Shown here: positions 1,218 to 21,344 of the stretch, in pieces
How the letters are laid out: every line of letters begins with the position of its first letter
How positions within the stretch are numbered: position 1 is the stretch's first letter
Source of the DNA: Pseudomonadota bacterium
GTDB taxonomy: Bacteria > Pseudomonadota > Alphaproteobacteria > Rhizobiales > Xanthobacteraceae
DNA length: 37,030 bases
Direction: 5' to 3'
NCBI GenBank assembly: GCA_021815055.1
Contig: JAKAHJ010000004.1
Coordinates: forward strand, 1-37,030
Program-made: the position numbers and the translations under genes
Notes under the pieces: generated by a model
Told to the model about the DNA's origin: nothing
Databases searched by the model: none
What the model saw: only the letters and a program-made list of their open reading frames with translations

Positions 1218-1372
1218 ATCGTTTCTCTCCCGGTGTCGCCCTTGTCGCGCCGGTTTTTTTGGCGCTACCGCACATTAGCCCAGCCATGGCCGGGAACCAT
1301 AGCCGGAGCCGGCCCTCACTTTTGCATGGAAACCGTGACTTGCGCGCGCGTCTCGGCTATCCCGGTGACCCC

Positions 1373-4192
1373 ATGGCTTCGCTCGCCTTTGAACACGATG
1401 CCCATTCGGCTTCCGAACCCGCACCGCGGGTTTCCGGCGACCTGATCGATTCACGGGCGATCGCCGCCGACCTGGAACAGCTTGCCAAGACCCACGGCAG
1501 CGCCGACCGAGAGCTGCGCAGCGCCCTGGCGACCCGGCTCAAGGCCGCGCTCATCGAGGGCCGTGCGCTGGCGGAACAGGCGCTGCTCCAGGATCGCAAC
1601 GGCCGCCGCTGCGCCGAGCGGTTGTGCCGGATGGAAGACGAGGTCATCCGGCTGCTTTACGAATTCGCGCGCAAGCACCTTTATCCGTCGCAGAATCCGT
1701 CGGAAGCCGAGCACATGGCGATCGTCGCCACCGGCGGCTATGGCCGCGGCTTGCAGGCGCCCGGTTCCGACATCGATCTTTTGTTCCTGCTGCCCTACAA
1801 GCAGACCGCCTGGGGCGAATCGATCGCCGAAGCGATCCTCTATTGCCTGTGGGATGTCGGACTGAAGGTCGGCCACGCCACGCGCTCGGTCGACGAGTGC
1901 ATTCGCCAGGCCAAGGCGGACATGACCATCCGCACCGCCATCCTGGAAGCGCGCTTCCTGCTCGGCGACCGCAACCTGTTCGACCAGCTACAAAACCGCT
2001 TCGACCACGAGGTGGTGCGCAACACCGCCGCCGAATTCGTCGCCGCCAAGCTCGCCGAACGCGAAGACCGCATCCGCCGCGCCGGCCAATCGCGCTATCT
2101 GGTCGAGCCGAACGTGAAGGATGGCAAGGGCGGCTTGCGCGATCTGCACACGCTGTTCTGGATCGCCAAATACGTCTACCGCGTGCGCGAGCCCGACGGG
2201 CTGATCGAACGCGGCGTGTTCGACAAGCGCGAGTATCAACTGTTCCGCCACTGCGAATCGTTCCTGTGGTCGGTGCGCTGCCACATGCATTTCGTCGCCG
2301 GCCGCGCCGAGGAGCGGCTGTCCTTCGACATCCAGCGCGAGATCGCGGTCAGGCTTGGCTACACCGAGCATCCCGGTTTGCAGGAAGTCGAACGTTTCAT
2401 GAAGCATTACTTCCTGATCGCGAAGGACGTCGGCGACCTGACCGCGATTCTCTGCGCCGATCTGGAAGACAGCCACGCCAAGAGCGAGCCGGTCCTGAGC
2501 CGCGTGATGGCGCGGCTTCGCCCGGTGAAGCGGCGCACGCTCAAAGAGAGCGACGATTTCGTCGTCGAGCATAATCGCATCCATCTCGCCCGCCCCGACG
2601 TCTTCGAGCGCGATCCGCTCAACCTGATCCGCATTTTTCATCTGGCGCAGAAGCACAATCTCGCTTTCCACCCGGATGCGATGCGAACCTTGACGCGTTC
2701 GCTCAAGCTCATCGACGCGACATTGCGCGAGGACGCGGAAGCCAATCGCCTGTTCCTGGAAATCCTGACCTCGCACAACGACCCGGAAACCGTGCTCAGG
2801 CGGATGAACGAAACCGGCGTGCTCGGCCGCTTCGTACCGGCCTTCGGCAAGATCGTCGCCATGATGCAGTTCAACATGTACCATCACTATACGGTGGACG
2901 AGCACCTGTTGCGCTGCATCGGCGTGCTGGCGGAGATCGAACGTGGCGCCAGCGCCGAGACCCAGCTCGCCAACGACCTGTTCCACAAGATTCTGCCCGC
3001 GCACCGGTCGCTGCTCTATGTCGCGCTGTTCCTGCACGACATCGCAAAGGGCCGTCCCGAAGACCATTCGACGGCCGGCGCGCGCGTGGCCCGGCGCTTC
3101 TGTCCGCGCCTCGGCTTTTCCGTCGCCGATACCGAGACCGTAGCCTGGCTGATCGAAAATCACCTGGTGATGTCGACGGTGGCGCAGTCGCGCGACCTGT
3201 CGGACCGCAAAACCATCGAGAATTTCGCCGCCACCGTACAGTCGGCCGAATGGCTGAAGCTCTTGACCATTCTCACCACCGCCGACATCAGGGCGGTCGG
3301 TCCCGGCGTCTGGAACGGCTGGAAGGCGCAGCTTCTGCGCACGCTCTATTACGAGACCGAGCCGGTGCTGACTGGCGGCTTCTCGGAGGTCAACCGAGCC
3401 CAGCGCGTGGCCATGGCGCAGACCGAATTCCGTACCGCCATGGCCGATTGGCCGACCGAACGGCTCGATGGCTATATCGCCAAGCACTATCCGGCCTATT
3501 GGCTCAAGGTCGATCTGCCGCACAAGGTCGAACATGCGCGCTTCGTGCGCGCGGCCGAGGACGCCGACAAGAACCTGTCGACCATGACCGGCTTCGACCG
3601 CGAGCGCGCGGTTACCGAGCTCACCGTGCTCGCGCCCGATCACCCGTGGCTGCTATCGATCATCGCGGGCGCCTGCGCCATGGCGGGCGCCAACATCGTC
3701 GATGCTCAGATCTACACCACCACCGACGGCCGCGCGCTCGATACCATCTCGCTCTCGCGCGAATTCGACCGCGACGAGGACGAGCAGCGCCGCGCCAATC
3801 GGATCGCCGATTCGATCGAGAAGGCGCTGCGCGGCGAATTGCGGTTGCCCGAGATGGTGGGCAAACGCGCGGCGCCGAAGGGGCGCATCAAGGCCTTCGC
3901 GCTCGAGCCGACGGTGACCATCAACAACCAGTGGTCCCACCGCTACACGATGGTGGAGGTCACCGGCCTCGACCGCACCGGCCTGCTCTACGAGCTGACC
4001 GCGACGCTGTCGAAGCTCAACCTCAACATCGCCAGCGCCCACGTCGCCACCTTCGGCGAGCGTGTCGTGGACGTATTCTATGTGACGGATCTAATGGGTG
4101 CGCAGATCACTTCGCCGACCCGGCAGGCCGCCATCAAGCGCGCGTTGATCGCGGTGTTTGCGACGGGCGAAGGCGAGAACAATGCGGTCTGA
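1373..4192 (+). CDS. glnD: bifunctional uridylyltransferase / uridylyl-removing enzyme GlnD
   Basis: 939 aa from the ATG at 1373, which fits GlnD of related bacteria; the frame stays open upstream (ATG at 1286 is possible). GlnD uridylylates PII proteins (GlnB/GlnK) under nitrogen limitation and removes the UMP when glutamine is high. Seen: a nucleotidyltransferase motif GGYGRG followed by SDIDLLF (Asp about 133 and 135), the GlnD-type linker (EPNVKDGKGGLRDL), an HD phosphohydrolase motif (His555-Asp556, HDIAKG) and two C-terminal ACT domains (from about residue 757 and 857) that sense glutamine. All catalytic motifs look intact. It converges on the RNase gene with only three bases between the two stop codons, so the two transcripts probably overlap. 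Confidence 0.96.
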   Translation: MASLAFEHDAHSASEPAPRVSGDLIDSRAIAADLEQLAKTHGSADRELRSALATRLKAALIEGRALAEQALLQDRNGRRCAERLCRMEDEVIRLLYEFARKHLYPSQNPSEAEHMAIVATGGYGRGLQAPGSDIDLLFLLPYKQTAWGESIAEAILYCLWDVGLKVGHATRSVDECIRQAKADMTIRTAILEARFLLGDRNLFDQLQNRFDHEVVRNTAAEFVAAKLAEREDRIRRAGQSRYLVEPNVKDGKGGLRDLHTLFWIAKYVYRVREPDGLIERGVFDKREYQLFRHCESFLWSVRCHMHFVAGRAEERLSFDIQREIAVRLGYTEHPGLQEVERFMKHYFLIAKDVGDLTAILCADLEDSHAKSEPVLSRVMARLRPVKRRTLKESDDFVVEHNRIHLARPDVFERDPLNLIRIFHLAQKHNLAFHPDAMRTLTRSLKLIDATLREDAEANRLFLEILTSHNDPETVLRRMNETGVLGRFVPAFGKIVAMMQFNMYHHYTVDEHLLRCIGVLAEIERGASAETQLANDLFHKILPAHRSLLYVALFLHDIAKGRPEDHSTAGARVARRFCPRLGFSVADTETVAWLIENHLVMSTVAQSRDLSDRKTIENFAATVQSAEWLKLLTILTTADIRAVGPGVWNGWKAQLLRTLYYETEPVLTGGFSEVNRAQRVAMAQTEFRTAMADWPTERLDGYIAKHYPAYWLKVDLPHKVEHARFVRAAEDADKNLSTMTGFDRERAVTELTVLAPDHPWLLSIIAGACAMAGANIVDAQIYTTTDGRALDTISLSREFDRDEDEQRRANRIADSIEKALRGELRLPEMVGKRAAPKGRIKAFALEPTVTINNQWSHRYTMVEVTGLDRTGLLYELTATLSKLNLNIASAHVATFGERVVDVFYVTDLMGAQITSPTRQAAIKRALIAVFATGEGENNAV

Positions 4193-4195
4193 TCG

Positions 4196-5794
4196 CTATT
4201 GGTTCGCTTCGAGCGCGCGTTTGAGCCGGCGGACGATCACGCCGCGCGCGCGATCGTCGGCGGCCGCGTCCATGGCCGCGTCGATATCGAGGATCAGCTT
4301 CGACATGTCGTTGTGCCAGTCGAGATTGACGACGGCCGCAGGCTCGAGCCGCCGCCGCAGCGTGACGTCGAGCGGTGTCGGCGCTTTGGTGGTGAGTTCG
4401 TAGACGTCGTCCAAAATCGGAATGAACACCTGCGCCGCCGGCACCGTGCGCTCGGCGATACGTTCGGACAGACCTTCGAGCGCCGGTTGTTCGCCGTGCT
4501 GCAGGAATACGCCGCGGCGGATCGGCCGCCGCGCCGCGATCCAGCGTGCCAGTTCCGGCCCGTCGGCGTGGCCGGAATATTCGTCGATGCGGCGGATGCG
4601 GGCCTTGACCTTGATCTCCTCGCCCTGGATGCGTACCGCCTTGGCGCCGCCGTCCAGGAAACGGCCGAGCGTGCCTTGCGCCTGGAAGCCGCTCAGCAGC
4701 ACGGTGGCGTTCGCCTGCCACAGCCAGCGCTTGAGATGATGGCGGATGCGTCCGGCGTCGCACATGCCGCTCGCGGCGATGACGATGTGAAAGCCGGTGA
4801 ACCGGGCGATCGACTTGCTCTCCTCTACCGTTTCGGTGCAGCGCAGATGCGGCGACGACAACAGCCGGTTGACGTCGGCGCCCGGTTCCAGAGTCTCCGC
4901 ATGCGCGCGGAATACCTCGGTGGCGCGGATTGCAAGCGGCGAATCGAGGAAAATGGGGGCGGCCGGAATGTCGCCGCGCTCCATCAGGTCGACGAGATCG
5001 ACGATCAACTCTTGCGTGCGCTCGACCGCGAAAGCAGGAATGAGCAGTGCGCCGCCGGCGGCCTGCGCTTCGCGCACTTCCGCGGCAAGCACTTGGCGGC
5101 GGCTCTCTCGCGTCACCGGCGGACGGTCGCGGTCGCCATAGGTCGATTCGCAGACGATATAGTCGAGCCCGGTCGGCGCTTCCGGATCGGGCTGCAAAAG
5201 CTTGGCGTCGGGCCCGATGTCGCCGGAGAGCAGAACGCGCAGCGGCTTGCCGGCGCCGCCCTCATCGGCGAATTCGATCTCGATGGAGGCCGAGCCGAGC
5301 AGATGGCCGGCGTTCCAGTAACGCGCGCGCGCGCCGGTCATCGCGGGTACCCAGGTCTCGTATTCGACCGCGTGGAAATGATCGAGCGCGGCGAAGGCAT
5401 CGGCCTGCGTATAGATCGGCGAAACCTCGGCGCGCCCTCGCGCGGCGTTGCGGCGGTTCAGGGCCTCGACTTCCGATTCCTGGATACTGCCGGCGTCGGG
5501 CAGCATGTAGGAGCACAGATCGATGGTGCCGCGCGTCGCGAGAATCCGGCCGCGGAAACCTTCGCGCACGAGCTTCGGCAACAGGCCGCTGTGGTCGATA
5601 TGGGCATGCGTGAGCAGCACCGTGTCGATGTCGGCCGGGTGGAAGGGAAAGCGCGAATAGTTGAGCGCCTTGAGCGTCTTCGGCCCCTGGAACAGGCCGC
5701 AGTCGACCAGCATGCGTCCGGCCTTCGTCTCGAACAGATAGCAGGAGCCGGTGACGGTGCGGGACGCGCCGCAGAAGCGTAAAGTGACGCTCAT
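4196..5794 (-). CDS. beta-CASP metallo-beta-lactamase-fold RNase
   Basis: 532 aa. The N-terminal metallo-beta-lactamase fold carries THAHIDH (62-68), followed by GHLLGSASIEI. The beta-CASP insert and its motifs follow: CESTYGDRDR, IPAFAVERTQE, an SGMCDAGRIRHHLKRWL segment, SGFQAQGT and YSGHADG. This is the architecture of archaeal/bacterial CPSF-like ribonucleases (COG1236 type), which act on RNA as endo- or 5'-exonucleases; DNA substrates are less likely. It is the last gene of a four-gene operon, and its ATG overlaps the stop of the PRPP synthetase gene (ATGA at 5791-5794), implying translational coupling. The last ~70 residues extend beyond the recognisable RNase core. Confidence 0.9.
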   Translation of the reverse strand: MSVTLRFCGASRTVTGSCYLFETKAGRMLVDCGLFQGPKTLKALNYSRFPFHPADIDTVLLTHAHIDHSGLLPKLVREGFRGRILATRGTIDLCSYMLPDAGSIQESEVEALNRRNAARGRAEVSPIYTQADAFAALDHFHAVEYETWVPAMTGARARYWNAGHLLGSASIEIEFADEGGAGKPLRVLLSGDIGPDAKLLQPDPEAPTGLDYIVCESTYGDRDRPPVTRESRRQVLAAEVREAQAAGGALLIPAFAVERTQELIVDLVDLMERGDIPAAPIFLDSPLAIRATEVFRAHAETLEPGADVNRLLSSPHLRCTETVEESKSIARFTGFHIVIAASGMCDAGRIRHHLKRWLWQANATVLLSGFQAQGTLGRFLDGGAKAVRIQGEEIKVKARIRRIDEYSGHADGPELARWIAARRPIRRGVFLQHGEQPALEGLSERIAERTVPAAQVFIPILDDVYELTTKAPTPLDVTLRRRLEPAAVVNLDWHNDMSKLILDIDAAMDAAADDRARGVIVRRLKRALEANQ

Positions 5795-6681
5795 GCGCTG
5801 AACTCCTTTTCGAGAGCGGCGGCGAGGATGCCGTCGAGCGCTATGGCATTGGTCGGATGCGGCACGCTCGACGTGGAACGGATCGAGCCGATACCGGCGC
5901 GTTTGAAATCGGCGATCATTTCGGGCGCGAACAAGGCATGCGTGATCACCGCATCGACCGTGCGCGCGCCGGCGGCGGCGAGCGCCCTGGCGCAGGCGAT
6001 CAGCGTCCCGCCGGAGGAGACGATGTCGTCGACGAGCAGTACCGGGCGGTCTTTGAACAGCGAGGGATCGGGAAAGGCGATCTCGACCGAGCGATCGCCG
6101 GCCCTGGTCTTGCGCGCGACCGCGGCGGCGAGCGACAGCCGGCCGGCGAGGTCGCTCACCCAGGCTTGCGATTCCTCGTCAGGGCCGACGACGACGGTTT
6201 CGCGTGCAATGCCGCGCAATGCATCCGCAATGGCGGGCATCGCCGACAGATCTTGCGCCTCGATGCCGGGGAACACGTCTTCGATGCGCTTCGTGCGATG
6301 CAGATGCGCGTCGACGGTGACGACGCGGTCGACGGTACGCGCGAGCAGCGCCCCGATGACCTTTTGGTTGATCGCTTCGCCAGTATGGAAGGCCGCATCC
6401 TGCCGCATGTAGCAGAGATAGGGCGCGACCAGCACCAGGCGCCTGGCGCCGCCGCGCCGCAGCGCTTCGGCCGCGAACAGGAGCACGAGCAGTTTGTCGT
6501 TCGGCCGGTCGAGCGGAAAATAGAGGATGACGGTGGGGACGGCTTCGCCGACGGTGACGCGCAATTCGCCGTCGGGAAAACGATGCACGTCGATGTCGCG
6601 CAGCGGCACACCGAGCCGCGCCGCCAGCCGCGCGGCGTCATCCGCGCCGGACGCCAAGCATTGCAGGTTGACGCCGCTCAT
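5791..6681 (-). CDS. ribose-phosphate pyrophosphokinase, divergent class
   Basis: 296 aa, slightly shorter than housekeeping Prs (about 315). Two phosphoribosyltransferase-fold halves are visible, with PYLCYMRQD (87-95) matching the conserved ATP-site RQD and [10 protein letters not shown] (217-226) as the PRPP/ribose-5-P loop. It departs from canonical Prs: the DLHAxQIQGFF element is [10 protein letters not shown] (124-133), and the usual PDxGG segment reads GPDEES (166-171). It is therefore probably a specialised paralogue making PRPP from ribose-5-phosphate or a related sugar phosphate, rather than the main Prs. It overlaps both neighbours by four bases (ATGA), so its product is likely made in step with the phosphorylase and the RNase. 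Confidence 0.85.
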
Positions 6682-8216
6682 GGCCGGTTCTCGCTGCCCG
6701 GCACAGGCGTCCTGATGACGTAGCCGTTGTCGGCCTTGGCCGCGGCCTGCGCGAGTTCGAACTCCGGCTGGTCGAAAGCGTAGATGCGATAGAGCGGCTC
6801 GCCTTTCTCCACCGGATCGCCGATCTTCTTGAACAGCTTGATGCCGGCGCCCTTGTCGATCGGCGCGCCGGCAGTGCGTGCGAGCCGGTTGAAGCGCAGG
6901 CAGTCGATCGCTTCGACCATGCCGTCGCGCGGCGCCGTCACGTCGGCAGTCAAGGTGCCGAGGTCGGTGCGCACGCCGGAGGGGCCCTGCGCGTCGATGA
7001 TCTTCTGCATTTGTTTCAGCGCGGCGCCGCTGTCGAGCAGTTCCCGCGCCCGCGCATAGCCCTTGCCGCCGCGCAACTCGGGATCGTAATCCAGGAGATG
7101 GGCGGCGAGCCGCAGCGATTTCTCGCGCAGGTCGACCGGTGCGCTGGGATCGTTCGACAGCACCGCCATAACGTCCTGCGCCTCCAGCACCGGGCCGATG
7201 CCGTTGCCGATCGGCTGGCTGCCGTCGGTCGCGATCGCCTCGACCGCGATGCCGAAGTGATCGCCGACAAATTCGAACAGCTTGCGCAGCCGCATCGCCT
7301 CCAGCGCGGTGGTGAGCTTGGCCGAGGGGCCGACGGGCAGGTCGATCAAGAGATGGGTGGATCCGGCCGCGAGCTTCTTCGACATGATCGAGGCGACCAT
7401 CTGCTCGCGGGTATCGAGGCTGAGCGGGCGCTCGACCGAGATCAGAATGTCGTCGGCCGGCGACAGGTTCACATGCCCGCCCCAGACCAGGCAGCCGTGG
7501 CAGGCGGCGACGATTTCCTTCATCTGCTCGACGCCGACATCGACGCGCGCCAGCACCTCCATGGTGTCGGCGGTGCCGGCGGGCGAGGTGATCGCGCGCG
7601 AGGAAGTTTTCGGAATGGTCAGCCCGTGCGCCGCGACGATCGGCACCACGACCATCGAGGTGCGATTGCCGGGAATGCCGCCGATGCAGTGCTTGTCCAC
7701 CACCATCGACCGCTGCCATTTGATCTGCGTGCCGGCATCGGCCATCGCCTTCGACAACGCGAGCAGTTCGCTCGAGGTCATGAAGCTGGCCGAGCCGATC
7801 AGGAAGGCGGCGACTTCCATATCGGAATAGCGGTAGTGCGAAATGTCGTCGATAATGGCGGCGATCTCGGGGGCGGAGAACGAACGGCCCTGGATCTTGC
7901 GGCGGACGAATTCGAGACTCTCGGGCGAGGCTGCCGGCGTGACCGAGACGAGCGTACCGACCGGCTCGCCGAAACGGCGGAAGGCGGGATCGGCGAGACC
8001 CAACTCGTCGACCTCGACCATGCCATCGTCGGTGAGCAGCAGAGTCGCAAGCAGGGCCTTGCCGTTCGAGCGCAGCTCGACGCGGCTGAAGCCGCGAAAC
8101 ACGTCCGGCCGCAGCGCGACCGAACGGCGCGAGATCACGACCACGTTTTCGCGGCCGGTATCGAGATTGACGCGCCGGACTTTCAGGCGCGGACGCAGAT
8201 TGTTGTTGGCTTTCAT
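6678..8216 (-). CDS. thymidine phosphorylase / AMP phosphorylase family protein (long form)
   Basis: 512 aa from the ATG at 8216; a GTG two codons upstream (8222) is also possible. At about 510 aa it is longer than classical DeoA (about 440) because it carries the extra N-terminal domain (about 1-85) found in archaeal AMP phosphorylases and the bacterial 'putative thymidine phosphorylase' family. The phosphorylase core is clear: [11 protein letters not shown], then [14 protein letters not shown], then [11 protein letters not shown], with a C-terminal domain including DKGAGI. Family members split (deoxy)nucleosides or NMPs with phosphate to base and pentose-1-phosphate or ribose-1,5-bisphosphate; sequence alone does not decide which. 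It sits 60 bases after the ATPase gene and overlaps the PRPP synthetase start. Confidence 0.9.
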
Positions 8217-8276
8217 CCCCACGGTCCATAACCGACATAAAGTAATAGAATATTAACGCTGCGGTCTGCGGCCTCG

Positions 8277-10637
8277 TCACGCAATCTTGAAAATCGCGGT
8301 CGCCGGCCGCTTGACCTGATCGAGAATGAACGCGAAGCCGATGGCCGCCAAGAATACGGCCGCGAGGGCGCGCCACGTCATCGCCTGCATGAGCGTGCCG
8401 GATAATGCGAGCGTGATGGCAATCGTGACGTCGGCGACGGATGAGGCAAAAATCCAATTGCTTGGCCGCGAGCTCCACATGTGGCGTCGCTCGCGCAGCA
8501 CGAACAGGACGGCCTGATTTCCGAAAACCAGCGTGACGAAGGCCAGCGTTTGCAGCTCGGGTTGACTCAATCCGAACCGGAATTTCCCGATCGCCAGAAT
8601 CATCGTGGAAAAGCCGAGCTTGCACGCGCCCAGCATCGCCGCGGCGGCCGTGACGTTGGGCATGCGCCAGACGCTGGGCGTGGGTGCCGGGCTGGCACGG
8701 TCGGTGGTGAGCGACATGGACAGGAAGTCGTTCGTCATGAACAACATCACCATCAGCGCCGGGGTGAGCACGGGTTGGCCGGTGAGGCCCAATCCGATCG
8801 CCAGGAACAGGACGATCTCGATCTTCTTGACCAGCATGTTGAAGGTGTAGGCGAGCAGCCGCTGGAACGCGATGCGGCCTTCCTTGACCGCATCGACGAT
8901 GCCGGCGAGGCCGGGCTCGGTGAGGACCATTCCGGCGGCGGTTTTGGCGGCGTCGGTTGCCGAAGAGACGGCGATGCCGATCTGCGCCTGCCGCAGCGCG
9001 GGTGCGTCGTTGACTCCGTCGCCGCACATGCCAACGGTGTGTGCGTGGTGTTGAAGCGCTTTTACAAGCTGGAATTTTTGCTCGGGCACGATGCGTGCGA
9101 ATACGCCGTATCGATCCACGCTCAATTCTTCCGACAACCGTTCGGCCGGGCAAACGGCGCCAGCAATTCCGACCTTGGCGGCTATGGCCGCCGCTGTCAC
9201 GGCGGAATCGCCGGTGATCATGACGGTGCGGACCCGCATGTCGTGCAGTGCCGCGATGAGCTTGGCCGAATCCTCGCGCGGCGGATCGCTGAGTGCGATG
9301 AGCCCGGCCAGCCGCGGCGGTGCCGGCGTTCCCACTGTAACGGCAATGATACGATGGCCCTGCGCGGCGAGCCCGTCGACCAGTTTGGCCGCTTGCGGCG
9401 GCAGCGTCGCCTGAGCGCCGACGACCTCGAATGCGCCTTTGATGACGTGGAGTTCACGGCCATCCGGATCGCGCGCGAAAGCTTGCGATGTCTTTACCGC
9501 CGGATCGAACGGCACGAAACGTTCGAGCCGGCTGCGCGGTTTGCTCGCGCCGGCCTGGGCCGCAGCAGCCCGGATGGCGGCATCGATCGGATCCTGATCG
9601 GCCTCCGAACTCGCCAAAGCGGCAAGCCGCAGGATGCCGTCGCGATCGAAGCCGTCCATGGCGACGATGTCGACGACCTCCAGATTATTGCGCGTCAAAG
9701 TGCCGGTCTTGTCGGCACAGAGCACATCCATCGCGGCGGCTTCGTGCGCGGCCGAGAGCCGCGTCAGCAGCACGCCACGCCGCGTGAGTACCTGGGCCGA
9801 AAGCGCGGCGGACAGCGCAAAGGTCGCCGGCAGCGCCAGCGGCATTGTCGCAAGCAATGCGGTCAGCGCGAGCCCGACCAAGTCCGGAAACGGCAGGGCC
9901 ATGAAATAGGCGGCAGCGACGATCAGCACCGCCACCGTTCCGTTCACGATCGCGAGATTGCGCGTGGCGGCGAATACGGCCCGTTGTTCGGTGCTGGCTG
10001 AATGCGCCACGCGTACAAGCTCGGCGGTGCGGCCAAAACTGGTGCGCGATCCGGTCGCGGTCACTTCGGCGATGGCCTGGCCGCGGCGCACCAGTGAACC
10101 GGCATAGGTGCGGTCGCCGGGGCCGGCGTCGACGGGAAGCGACTCCCCCGTCAGCATCGACTGGTCGGCCATGATCGTTCCCGACACCACCGTTGCATCG
10201 GCGGGGACCAGGGCCCCCATGGCCAGCCGGATGGCGTCGCCCGGAACAAGTTCGGACGCCGGCATGCGCCGCCACTCACCGTCGCGGCTCACCAGCGCGG
10301 TCGGGGCGAGCTTTTGCTTGAGCGCGGCAAGCGCAGCGCCGGCCCGGCTTTCCTGGACGAATGCGAGGATCGTATTGAACAGGAGCAGGCCGCCGATTAC
10401 CGCGGCTTCGACATAGGCGCCGAGCCCAATCTGCAGCAGGATCGCCGCTTCGAGCATCCACGGGATCGGGCTCCAGAATTTCGCCAGAAACACTTTCCAG
10501 CGCGGCGGAAGTTCCTCGCTGACGGCATTGGGCCCGAATTCGGCCAGCCGGCGCCGCGCTTCCGCGCTGGTGAGTCCGCCAATGGCGATGTCTGTCGCCG
10601 GACGGTCGTCAGTGCCGATTGGGGTTGCTTGTGCCAT
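8277..10637 (-). CDS. plasma-membrane proton-efflux P-type ATPase (P3A type)
   Basis: 786 aa, compact like bacterial and archaeal P3A H+-ATPases. Seen in order: a short N-terminal cytoplasmic region, membrane helices from about residue 55, actuator motif TGES (163-166), a PLALPATFALS stretch in M4, the phosphorylation motif DKTGTLT with Asp309, GDGVNDAP in the P domain, and an M6 segment TNDFLSMSLTTDR. That M6 Asp aligns with the proton-binding Asp of plant and fungal pumps, and the following PAPTPSVW also resembles them. Predicted role: ATP-driven proton export that maintains the membrane potential, for example when respiration is limited. First gene of the four-gene operon; a FixK/FNR-like box lies 76-89 bases upstream of its start. 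No C-terminal autoinhibitory domain is seen. Confidence 0.9.
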   Translation of the reverse strand: MAQATPIGTDDRPATDIAIGGLTSAEARRRLAEFGPNAVSEELPPRWKVFLAKFWSPIPWMLEAAILLQIGLGAYVEAAVIGGLLLFNTILAFVQESRAGAALAALKQKLAPTALVSRDGEWRRMPASELVPGDAIRLAMGALVPADATVVSGTIMADQSMLTGESLPVDAGPGDRTYAGSLVRRGQAIAEVTATGSRTSFGRTAELVRVAHSASTEQRAVFAATRNLAIVNGTVAVLIVAAAYFMALPFPDLVGLALTALLATMPLALPATFALSAALSAQVLTRRGVLLTRLSAAHEAAAMDVLCADKTGTLTRNNLEVVDIVAMDGFDRDGILRLAALASSEADQDPIDAAIRAAAAQAGASKPRSRLERFVPFDPAVKTSQAFARDPDGRELHVIKGAFEVVGAQATLPPQAAKLVDGLAAQGHRIIAVTVGTPAPPRLAGLIALSDPPREDSAKLIAALHDMRVRTVMITGDSAVTAAAIAAKVGIAGAVCPAERLSEELSVDRYGVFARIVPEQKFQLVKALQHHAHTVGMCGDGVNDAPALRQAQIGIAVSSATDAAKTAAGMVLTEPGLAGIVDAVKEGRIAFQRLLAYTFNMLVKKIEIVLFLAIGLGLTGQPVLTPALMVMLFMTNDFLSMSLTTDRASPAPTPSVWRMPNVTAAAAMLGACKLGFSTMILAIGKFRFGLSQPELQTLAFVTLVFGNQAVLFVLRERRHMWSSRPSNWIFASSVADVTIAITLALSGTLMQAMTWRALAAVFLAAIGFAFILDQVKRPATAIFKIA

Positions 10638-10712
10638 GTCGAGCGATCAGCGAATGATGAACAAGCCGCCCGCAACTCTGCAGCGAAGCTAGATAGATGT
10701 GCCTGCGGCACA

Positions 10713-10726
10713 TTGATTTGCCTCAA
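10713..10726. promoter_or_regulatory. FixK/FNR-like box
   Basis: TTGATTTGCCTCAA fits TTGA-N6-TCAA exactly and the FNR consensus TTGAT-N4-ATCAA with one mismatch. It lies between the P-type ATPase start (10637, -) and the remnant gene to its right, the expected distance from an activated promoter. It implies induction of the ATPase operon by a CRP/FNR-family regulator under low oxygen. Seen: the motif and its position. Inferred: the regulator and its effect. Confidence 0.65.
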
Positions 10727-20240: not shown

Positions 20241-21344
20241 TTAGCGGCTTTGCGACCGCTCGGGGAAGGCCGCGGCCAGTTGCGCGCGGCTTGCCCCGAT
20301 AATACCGCGCTCGGTGATCAGCCCGGTGACCAGCCGGGCCGGGGTCACGTCGAAGGCGTAGTTCGCCACCGGCGAGCCGTCCGGCACCACCTGCACGGTT
20401 TCGATGCGGCCGTCCTTGGTTTTGCCGGTCATGGTCGCGACTTCTTCCGTGCCGCGCTGTTCGATCGGGATTTCGGTAATTCCGTCGCTGACGCTGAAGT
20501 CGATCGTCGGCGAGGGCAGCGCGACATAGAACGGCACGTTGTTGTCGCGCGCCGCCAGCGCTTTCAGGTAGGTGCCGATCTTGTTGCAGACGTCGCCTTG
20601 CGCGGTGACGCGGTCGGTGCCGACGATCGCGAGATCGACCAGCCCATGCTGCATCAGGTGGCCGCCGGTGTTGTCGGGGATCACGGTGTGCGGCACGCCG
20701 TGCTTGTTGAGCTCCCAGGCGGTGAGCGAGGCGCCCTGATTGCGCGGCCGCGTTTCGTCGGCGAACACGTGCACGCCCACGCCCTTGTCGTGCGCCATGT
20801 AGATCGGCGCGGTCGCCGTGCCCCAGTCGACGGTCGCCAGCCAGCCGGCATTGCAATGCGTGAGCACGTTGACGCGCTCGCCGTTCTTTTTGTGTGCGGC
20901 GATTTCTTCGATGAGCTTCAGGCCATGCCGCCCGATCGCCCGGTTGATGGCGACATCTTCCTCGGCGATCTCGCCGGCGCGGGCGAGCGCGGCTTGCGCG
21001 CGTTCCGCACGCGGACGGTTGCGCACGGCCGCCATCAGTTCGTCGAGCGCCCATTTCAGATTGATCGCGGTCGGCCGGGTCGCGAGCAGCGTCGCATAGG
21101 CGCGATCGAGATGGTCGTCCGAGGCGTCGGCCTTGAGCGCCAGCCATAGGCCGTAGGCCGCCGCCGCGCCGATCAGCGGCGCCCCGCGCACCTGCATCGA
21201 TTGGATCGCATGTGCGGCGTCGGCGAGCGTCGCGAGCCGCGTCGTGACGAAGCGGTGCGGCAGTTGCGTCTGGTCGATGATGCCGATCGAACGGCCGTCC
21301 TCATCCAGCCAGATCGTGCGTGTCGGCTTGCCGTCGATTTTCAT
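20241..21344 (-). CDS. mtnA: S-methyl-5-thioribose-1-phosphate isomerase (MtnA / eIF2B-like family)
   Basis: 367 aa, the standard MtnA length. Catalytic residues are present: Cys164 in [11 protein letters not shown] and Asp244 in [25 protein letters not shown] and [10 protein letters not shown] also fit. It isomerises the aldose 5-methylthioribose-1-phosphate to the ketose in methionine salvage. The same fold includes ribose-1,5-bisphosphate isomerases, but length and motifs favour MtnA. No other methionine-salvage gene is in the window. Divergent from the hydrolase gene to its right. Confidence 0.93.

Follow-up and report, generated by a model that had tools for sequence, protein, structure and literature searches.

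The stretch of DNA analysed here, hereafter the window, comprises positions 1 to 37,030 of contig JAKAHJ010000004.1 from a bacterium of the Xanthobacteraceae (assembly GCA_021815055.1). Its minus strand carries the four genes of an operon encoding, in the order of transcription, a P3A-type ATPase, a long-form phosphorylase, a divergent relative of phosphoribosyl pyrophosphate (PRPP) synthetase, named Prs-like below, and a beta-CASP/RMMBL protein (Table 1). The ATPase and phosphorylase genes are separated by a 54 bp gap, while the phosphorylase/Prs-like and the Prs-like/ribonuclease (RNase) junctions each consist of a 4-bp ATGA overlap. The operon is flanked by glnD (1259-4192, plus strand) and by a class A penicillin-binding protein (PBP) gene (from about 11168, plus strand). 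A preliminary description had given this gene set, its order, the ATGA overlaps and an upstream FNR/FixK-type box, all of which were seen in the window. Scanning for sigma-70 promoters and terminators yielded no matches above chance level.

Table 1. Features of the operon and of related loci (positions without a locus name refer to the window)
Feature	Position or locus	Strand	Basis or content
FNR/FixK-type box TTGATTTGCCTCAA	10713..10726	.	9/10 consensus bases matched
P3A-type H+-ATPase	8277..10637	-	TIGR01647 just below cut-off; solved relatives; head of operon, local addition
Long-form phosphorylase (TIGR02645), proposed 5'-mononucleotide (NMP) phosphorylase giving ribose-1,5-bisphosphate	6678..8222	-	profiles, tree, class residues
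Divergent PRPP-synthetase-like transferase (NF005537/PRK07199 subfamily), proposed to use the phosphorylase product	5791..6681	-	profile, motif, gene pairing
Beta-CASP metallo-hydrolase with RMMBL domain, probable ribonuclease	4196..5794	-	PF10996, PF07521, nearest structure
PhnN-phosphorylase fusions, apparently unnamed	L043:3444-5756, L155:8772-10802, L156:9208-11283, L161:10724-12760, L157:2746-4833
Phosphorylase-RNase operons without adjacent Prs-like gene	L075, L097, L058, L063, L085, L088, L091, L098, L102
Compact island around the trio, plasmid of Criblamydia sequanensis (chlamydia relative)	L061:1-12689		P-type ATPase, phosphoketolase, alpha-glucan phosphorylase, ATP-cone protein, RNase, phosphorylase, Prs-like, acetate kinase

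The conserved trio and its partner exchange

The true unit at this locus is the phosphorylase-Prs-RNase trio, which is present across many proteobacteria; the co-occurrence predicted beforehand was borne out by gene-neighbourhood comparison in 298 genomes of the order and further genomes of a phylum sample. The same-genus loci L197-L212 display the gene order phosphorylase-Prs-RNase (one fragment holds the phosphorylase only), and, where the contig extends far enough, their trio is flanked by the PBP gene and glnD. We found that the divergent Prs subfamily almost never occurs without the phosphorylase, an association that is new here. The NF005537 profile detected 16 places in the order sample (one just below the cut-off, the next score being 173 bits), and each of the 16 had a TIGR02645 gene within operon range, as did 34 of the 36 Prs-like places in the further phylum-sample genomes. 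Overall, the Prs-like gene lies beside the phosphorylase gene at 50 of 52 places, within 300 bp at 45 of these 50. In one exception, genome G680, the two genes are on different contigs and the phosphorylase gene is at a contig end. One clear exception to the pairing was observed at L222 (G816:C9:146780-147676), where a Prs-like gene has no long-form phosphorylase nearby.

Where Prs-like is absent, the phosphorylase usually forms a fusion with PhnN, which is also new here. Eleven phosphorylase places of the order sample were devoid of an intact Prs-like neighbour: nine are in-frame PhnN fusions, and the remaining two occur in genomes with a fusion as well, one of the two adjoining a Prs-like remnant that contains a stop codon. 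Such fusions were present in 13 sampled genomes (9 of the order and 4 of the phylum sample), and the five order fusions that were checked exceed the cut-offs of both the PhnN and the phosphorylase families. In the phosphorylase tree, the fusion clade is nested within a bacterial clade otherwise paired with Prs-like. PhnN, the ribose-1,5-bisphosphate (R15P) phosphokinase of phosphonate metabolism, converts R15P into PRPP (PMC9700705). Because this R15P kinase is fused to the phosphorylase, R15P would be the intermediate that the two share, and the fusions thereby support the bisphosphate that had been suggested as the phosphorylase product. PhnN thus acts on the very product proposed here; in contrast to its setting in phosphonate metabolism, no phosphonate genes were present among the open reading frames tested in two fusion neighbourhoods (L155 and L161). 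Directly upstream of the fusions L043 and L161 lies a gene of the quinolinate-phosphoribosyltransferase family, which uses PRPP.

Enzymes of the trio

The Prs-like protein is annotated as a ribose-phosphate diphosphokinase and scored 392.2 bits against NF005537/PRK07199 (cut-off 322). Its residues were compared over 88 members of the subfamily and at 13 canonical ATP, metal and flexible-loop positions, all of which are retained (F35, D37, E39, R93, Q94, D95, H126, D168, K191, R193, D218, D219 and T226). This conservation, together with the annotation, is what a salvage function would predict, in which Prs-like makes PRPP from ribose-5-phosphate (R5P) and handles no R15P, while the phosphorylase balances phosphoribosyltransferases and bases are recycled in stress. 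We consider such a function rather unlikely. A canonical Prs (about 372-383 bits) was detected in 17/17 genomes searched, 15 of which also carry the Prs-like gene, so that the usual provision of PRPP does not require Prs-like. Moreover, L127-H128-R129, E170, W174 and D196 are specific to the subfamily and nearly invariant in it, and LHR, E170 and D196 flank the catalytic residues; throughout the subfamily the canonical HA[GP]Q and PDxGG motifs and the flexible-loop proline are replaced by HLHR, PDxE and KxRxxD. The exchange of partner with PhnN, an enzyme acting on R15P, also argues against salvage from R5P. Genome G182 (98% complete) harbours a Prs-like gene (303 bits, just below the cut-off) and neither PhnN nor R15P isomerase above cut-off. 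The canonical Prs already at hand, the motif of its own and the case of G182 led us to the view that Prs-like acts on R15P, by a reaction for which two candidates are given below.

Two other sinks for R15P were considered and rejected. PhnN encoded elsewhere in the genome was not found in the assembly of the window's organism (69% complete), nor above cut-off in G182 and G057. R15P isomerase (TIGR00511) reached its cut-off in 0/24 phosphorylase-bearing genomes, and the homologue in the window scores as MtnA and not as R15P isomerase. This MtnA, a methylthioribose-1-phosphate isomerase related to R15P isomerase, is encoded at positions 20241-21314, about 10 kb from the operon.

The phosphorylase itself passed TIGR02645 with 701.8 bits (cut-off 434.6), and its alignment with the Thermococcus kodakarensis structure 4ga5 spans residues 13-492, taking in the N-terminal domain. 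In the tree, a branch of length 2.03 with full support sets the window phosphorylase and the archaeal enzymes apart from the DeoA types; 29 positions are common to the phosphorylase and two archaeal sequences and not found in DeoA. Judged by these comparisons, the phosphorylase groups with archaeal NMP phosphorylases and not with thymidine phosphorylases, an assignment that is new here and that upholds the archaeal kinship first read from the N-terminal extension. AMP, CMP and UMP are substrates of the T. kodakarensis enzyme, which converts NMPs into R15P by phosphorolysis (PMC9700705), and the same chemistry is predicted for the window phosphorylase. The annotated identity, that of a thymidine/pyrimidine nucleoside phosphorylase giving ribose-1-phosphate to the pentose phosphate route, has in its favour the database name 'thymidine phosphorylase' and residues common to both classes (K177, H178, S278, K282 and others), but it was rejected as very improbable on the DeoA scores (197.8 bits for NF004490, cut-off 269; 147.3 for TIGR02643, cut-off 570.7), the tree position and the fusion to an R15P kinase in relatives.

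The third protein of the trio matched Pfam PF10996 and PF07521 above cut-off, and its nearest solved relative is the RNase TTHA0252 (E 3.7e-69). Its metal and beta-CASP residues (H63, H65, D67, H68, H164, D192, E216, H409 and H433) are invariant in 8 homologues, which makes it a probable ribonuclease. We infer that it may deliver mononucleotides to the phosphorylase.

Oxygen control and the place of the ATPase

The box at the head of the operon reads TTGAGGCAAATCAA on the coding strand, its centre being 82 bp upstream of the ATPase start codon. Taken by itself it is weak, as at least one match with one mismatch or fewer occurred in 35/100 shuffled windows. It gains weight because it is the sole such match in the window, because it stands at the operon head and because relatives have boxes at the equivalent place: nine same-genus loci show a box with 1-2 mismatches located 63-104 bp upstream of the phosphorylase gene. 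Boxes with at most two mismatches precede 29/48 trios, where Markov shuffles predict 4.1, and 7/10 phosphorylase-RNase operons (0.75 expected), compared to 7/41 phosphorylase-Prs pairs without RNase (4.2 expected), although these counts are not independent since many of the loci are related. RNase and box travel together. In the soybean symbiont Bradyrhizobium diazoefficiens, bll3117-bll3116-bll3115 is the orthologous trio, a predicted operon with the box ATGATCTGGGTCAA at -74, and deletion of fixK2 changed expression of bll3117 by -6.6-fold and of bll3115 by -30.6-fold (PMC9104804). At 0.5% O2 the bll3117, bll3116 and bll3115 transcripts rose 5.1-, 7.7- and 15.4-fold and the proteins by log2 2.1, 4.4 and 2.9, respectively (PMC6515984). 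Genes, order and upstream FixK-type box are those of our trio; unlike in the window, no ATPase is reported ahead of the operon in the relevant passages of these papers, which list the genes in tables and propose no pathway (PMC6515984, PMC9104804). A box identical to ATGATCTGGGTCAA occurs 33-67 bp upstream of the operon in L036, L037, L073 and L075. Microoxic induction and FixK2 dependence are therefore already published for the B. diazoefficiens trio and, together with the box enrichment in relatives, favour the oxygen regulation that had been suspected; in the window organism the operon would be controlled likewise.

The ATPase does not belong to this conserved arrangement. It was found at 0/10 same-genus loci in which both the PBP gene and the trio are readable, and 11/150 family genomes contained a relative with 40% identity or more. 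In some relatives the gap between the PBP gene and the trio is filled by other genes, for an SbmA/BacA-like ABC transporter or a VIT-family protein. In the window the ATPase gene stands between the box and the trio, and the best box right before the phosphorylase gene has 3 mismatches. Since it is absent in congeners, rare in the family and inserted behind the box, the ATPase is a local addition, now probably under the old promoter; it probably shares control with the trio and is outside the pathway. As to its type, the closest solved structures are plant and fungal plasma-membrane H+-ATPases, and the Asn-Asp of transmembrane helix 6 aligns with AHA2, in agreement with the P3A assignment made initially, while the TIGR01647 cut-off was missed by little (612.4 bits, cut-off 615.5). 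The idea that all four genes form one machine, combining RNA breakdown with a proton pump that keeps the membrane gradient under oxygen lack, could draw on the common strand, the 54 bp gap, the shared upstream box and other P-type ATPases near some trio loci, but those ATPases differ in type (about 30% identity, or heavy-metal type), and synteny and rarity in the family leave it little credence and led us to discard the ATPase as a core member. A second phosphorylase copy without Prs-like, adjoining a heavy-metal P-type ATPase, was observed at L223:8198-12664 (G740).

A proposed route for nucleotide dismantling

We propose that the trio is a nucleotide-dismantling operon induced by oxygen lack, a form of the archaeal NMP shunt in Proteobacteria, and give this reading, whose enzymology is deduced from sequence comparison, a probability of about 0.55. 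A FixK/FNR-type regulator, for which the experiments in the B. diazoefficiens orthologue provide the precedent, would switch the trio on at low oxygen. The beta-CASP RNase would supply NMPs out of RNA, and the phosphorylase, as its clade, its shared residues and the PhnN fusions suggest, would catalyse NMP + Pi -> base + R15P. Prs-like could then fill the role of PhnN on the bisphosphate (R15P + ATP -> PRPP + ADP); alternatively, by reverse Prs chemistry, AMP could attack the 1-phosphate (R15P + AMP -> R5P + ADP). Like the archaeal shunt, or pentose bisphosphate pathway, of T. kodakarensis (NMP phosphorylase, R15P isomerase and RuBisCO), this route would rely on a long-form phosphorylase, from the same clade and equipped with the N-terminal domain, and its proposed product is the same. 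It differs in that the 24 phosphorylase-bearing genomes show no R15P isomerase above cut-off, in its proposed sink, Prs-like or PhnN, and in the addition of a beta-CASP RNase and of oxygen control.

The pentose phosphate might be further used where a phosphoketolase is at hand. The trio adjoins phosphoketolase and acetate kinase genes on the Criblamydia plasmid (Table 1), and a phosphoketolase gene on an Agrobacterium plasmid (L062), the latter gene having been assigned by similarity despite its annotation as 'xylulose 5-phosphate 3-epimerase'. The FixK2 target list of B. diazoefficiens also includes phosphoketolase and acetate kinase (PMC9104804). With such co-regulated or adjacent enzymes, pentose phosphate could be converted into acetyl phosphate and ATP, which suggests its fermentation to acetyl phosphate in some lineages, not all. 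Phosphoketolase was discarded as a necessary partner: it lies near the trio in only about 6/108 loci, its enrichment is lineage-confounded, and no full-length match was found in the window's incomplete genome (69% complete). More speculatively, and with distinctly less confidence than in the shunt itself, Proteobacteria may conserve energy from RNA under oxygen lack, the PRK07199 'Prs' being an unrecognised transferase family that moves the 1-phosphate of R15P to AMP (or builds PRPP) and R5P being passed through phosphoketolase to yield further ATP.

Several points weigh against the proposed shunt. To our knowledge, no activity is known for any bacterial member, and the window enzyme scored 492.2 bits against the AMP_phos equivalog TIGR03327, below its cut-off of 535, so that it was not filed as an AMP-phosphorylase equivalog. 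The fusion clade departs at some positions that are otherwise conserved (N186 to S and E264 to N or T, for example), and its substrate may not transfer exactly for this reason. About 10 loci have phosphorylase and RNase without adjacent Prs-like, including L075 and L097 of Bradyrhizobium, in which no Prs-like gene was located; Azospirillum ramasamyi carries it on a plasmid other than that of the phosphorylase-RNase operon. RNases of the TTHA0252 type need not liberate mononucleotides. Phosphoketolase was present in 10/15 trio genomes compared to 44/283 others, a lineage-confounded difference. Taken as a whole, the initial reading of the locus, an oxygen-regulated operon turning RNA into ribose phosphates, is largely supported in its central guess by independent evidence, its proton-pump part excepted.

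Archaea have been shown to metabolise R15P via an NMP phosphorylase, and metagenomes have prompted the suggestion of bacterial cases (PMC9700705); no paper describing the pathway in Proteobacteria was found in the literature searched. The operon points to a distinct version that would be widespread in Proteobacteria, controlled by oxygen and endowed with its own bisphosphate-handling enzyme. If true, this would assign a role to a family whose annotation as thymidine phosphorylase is probably wrong, as well as to a second Prs family, and it would account for an operon of the model symbiont B. diazoefficiens that depends strongly on FixK2.

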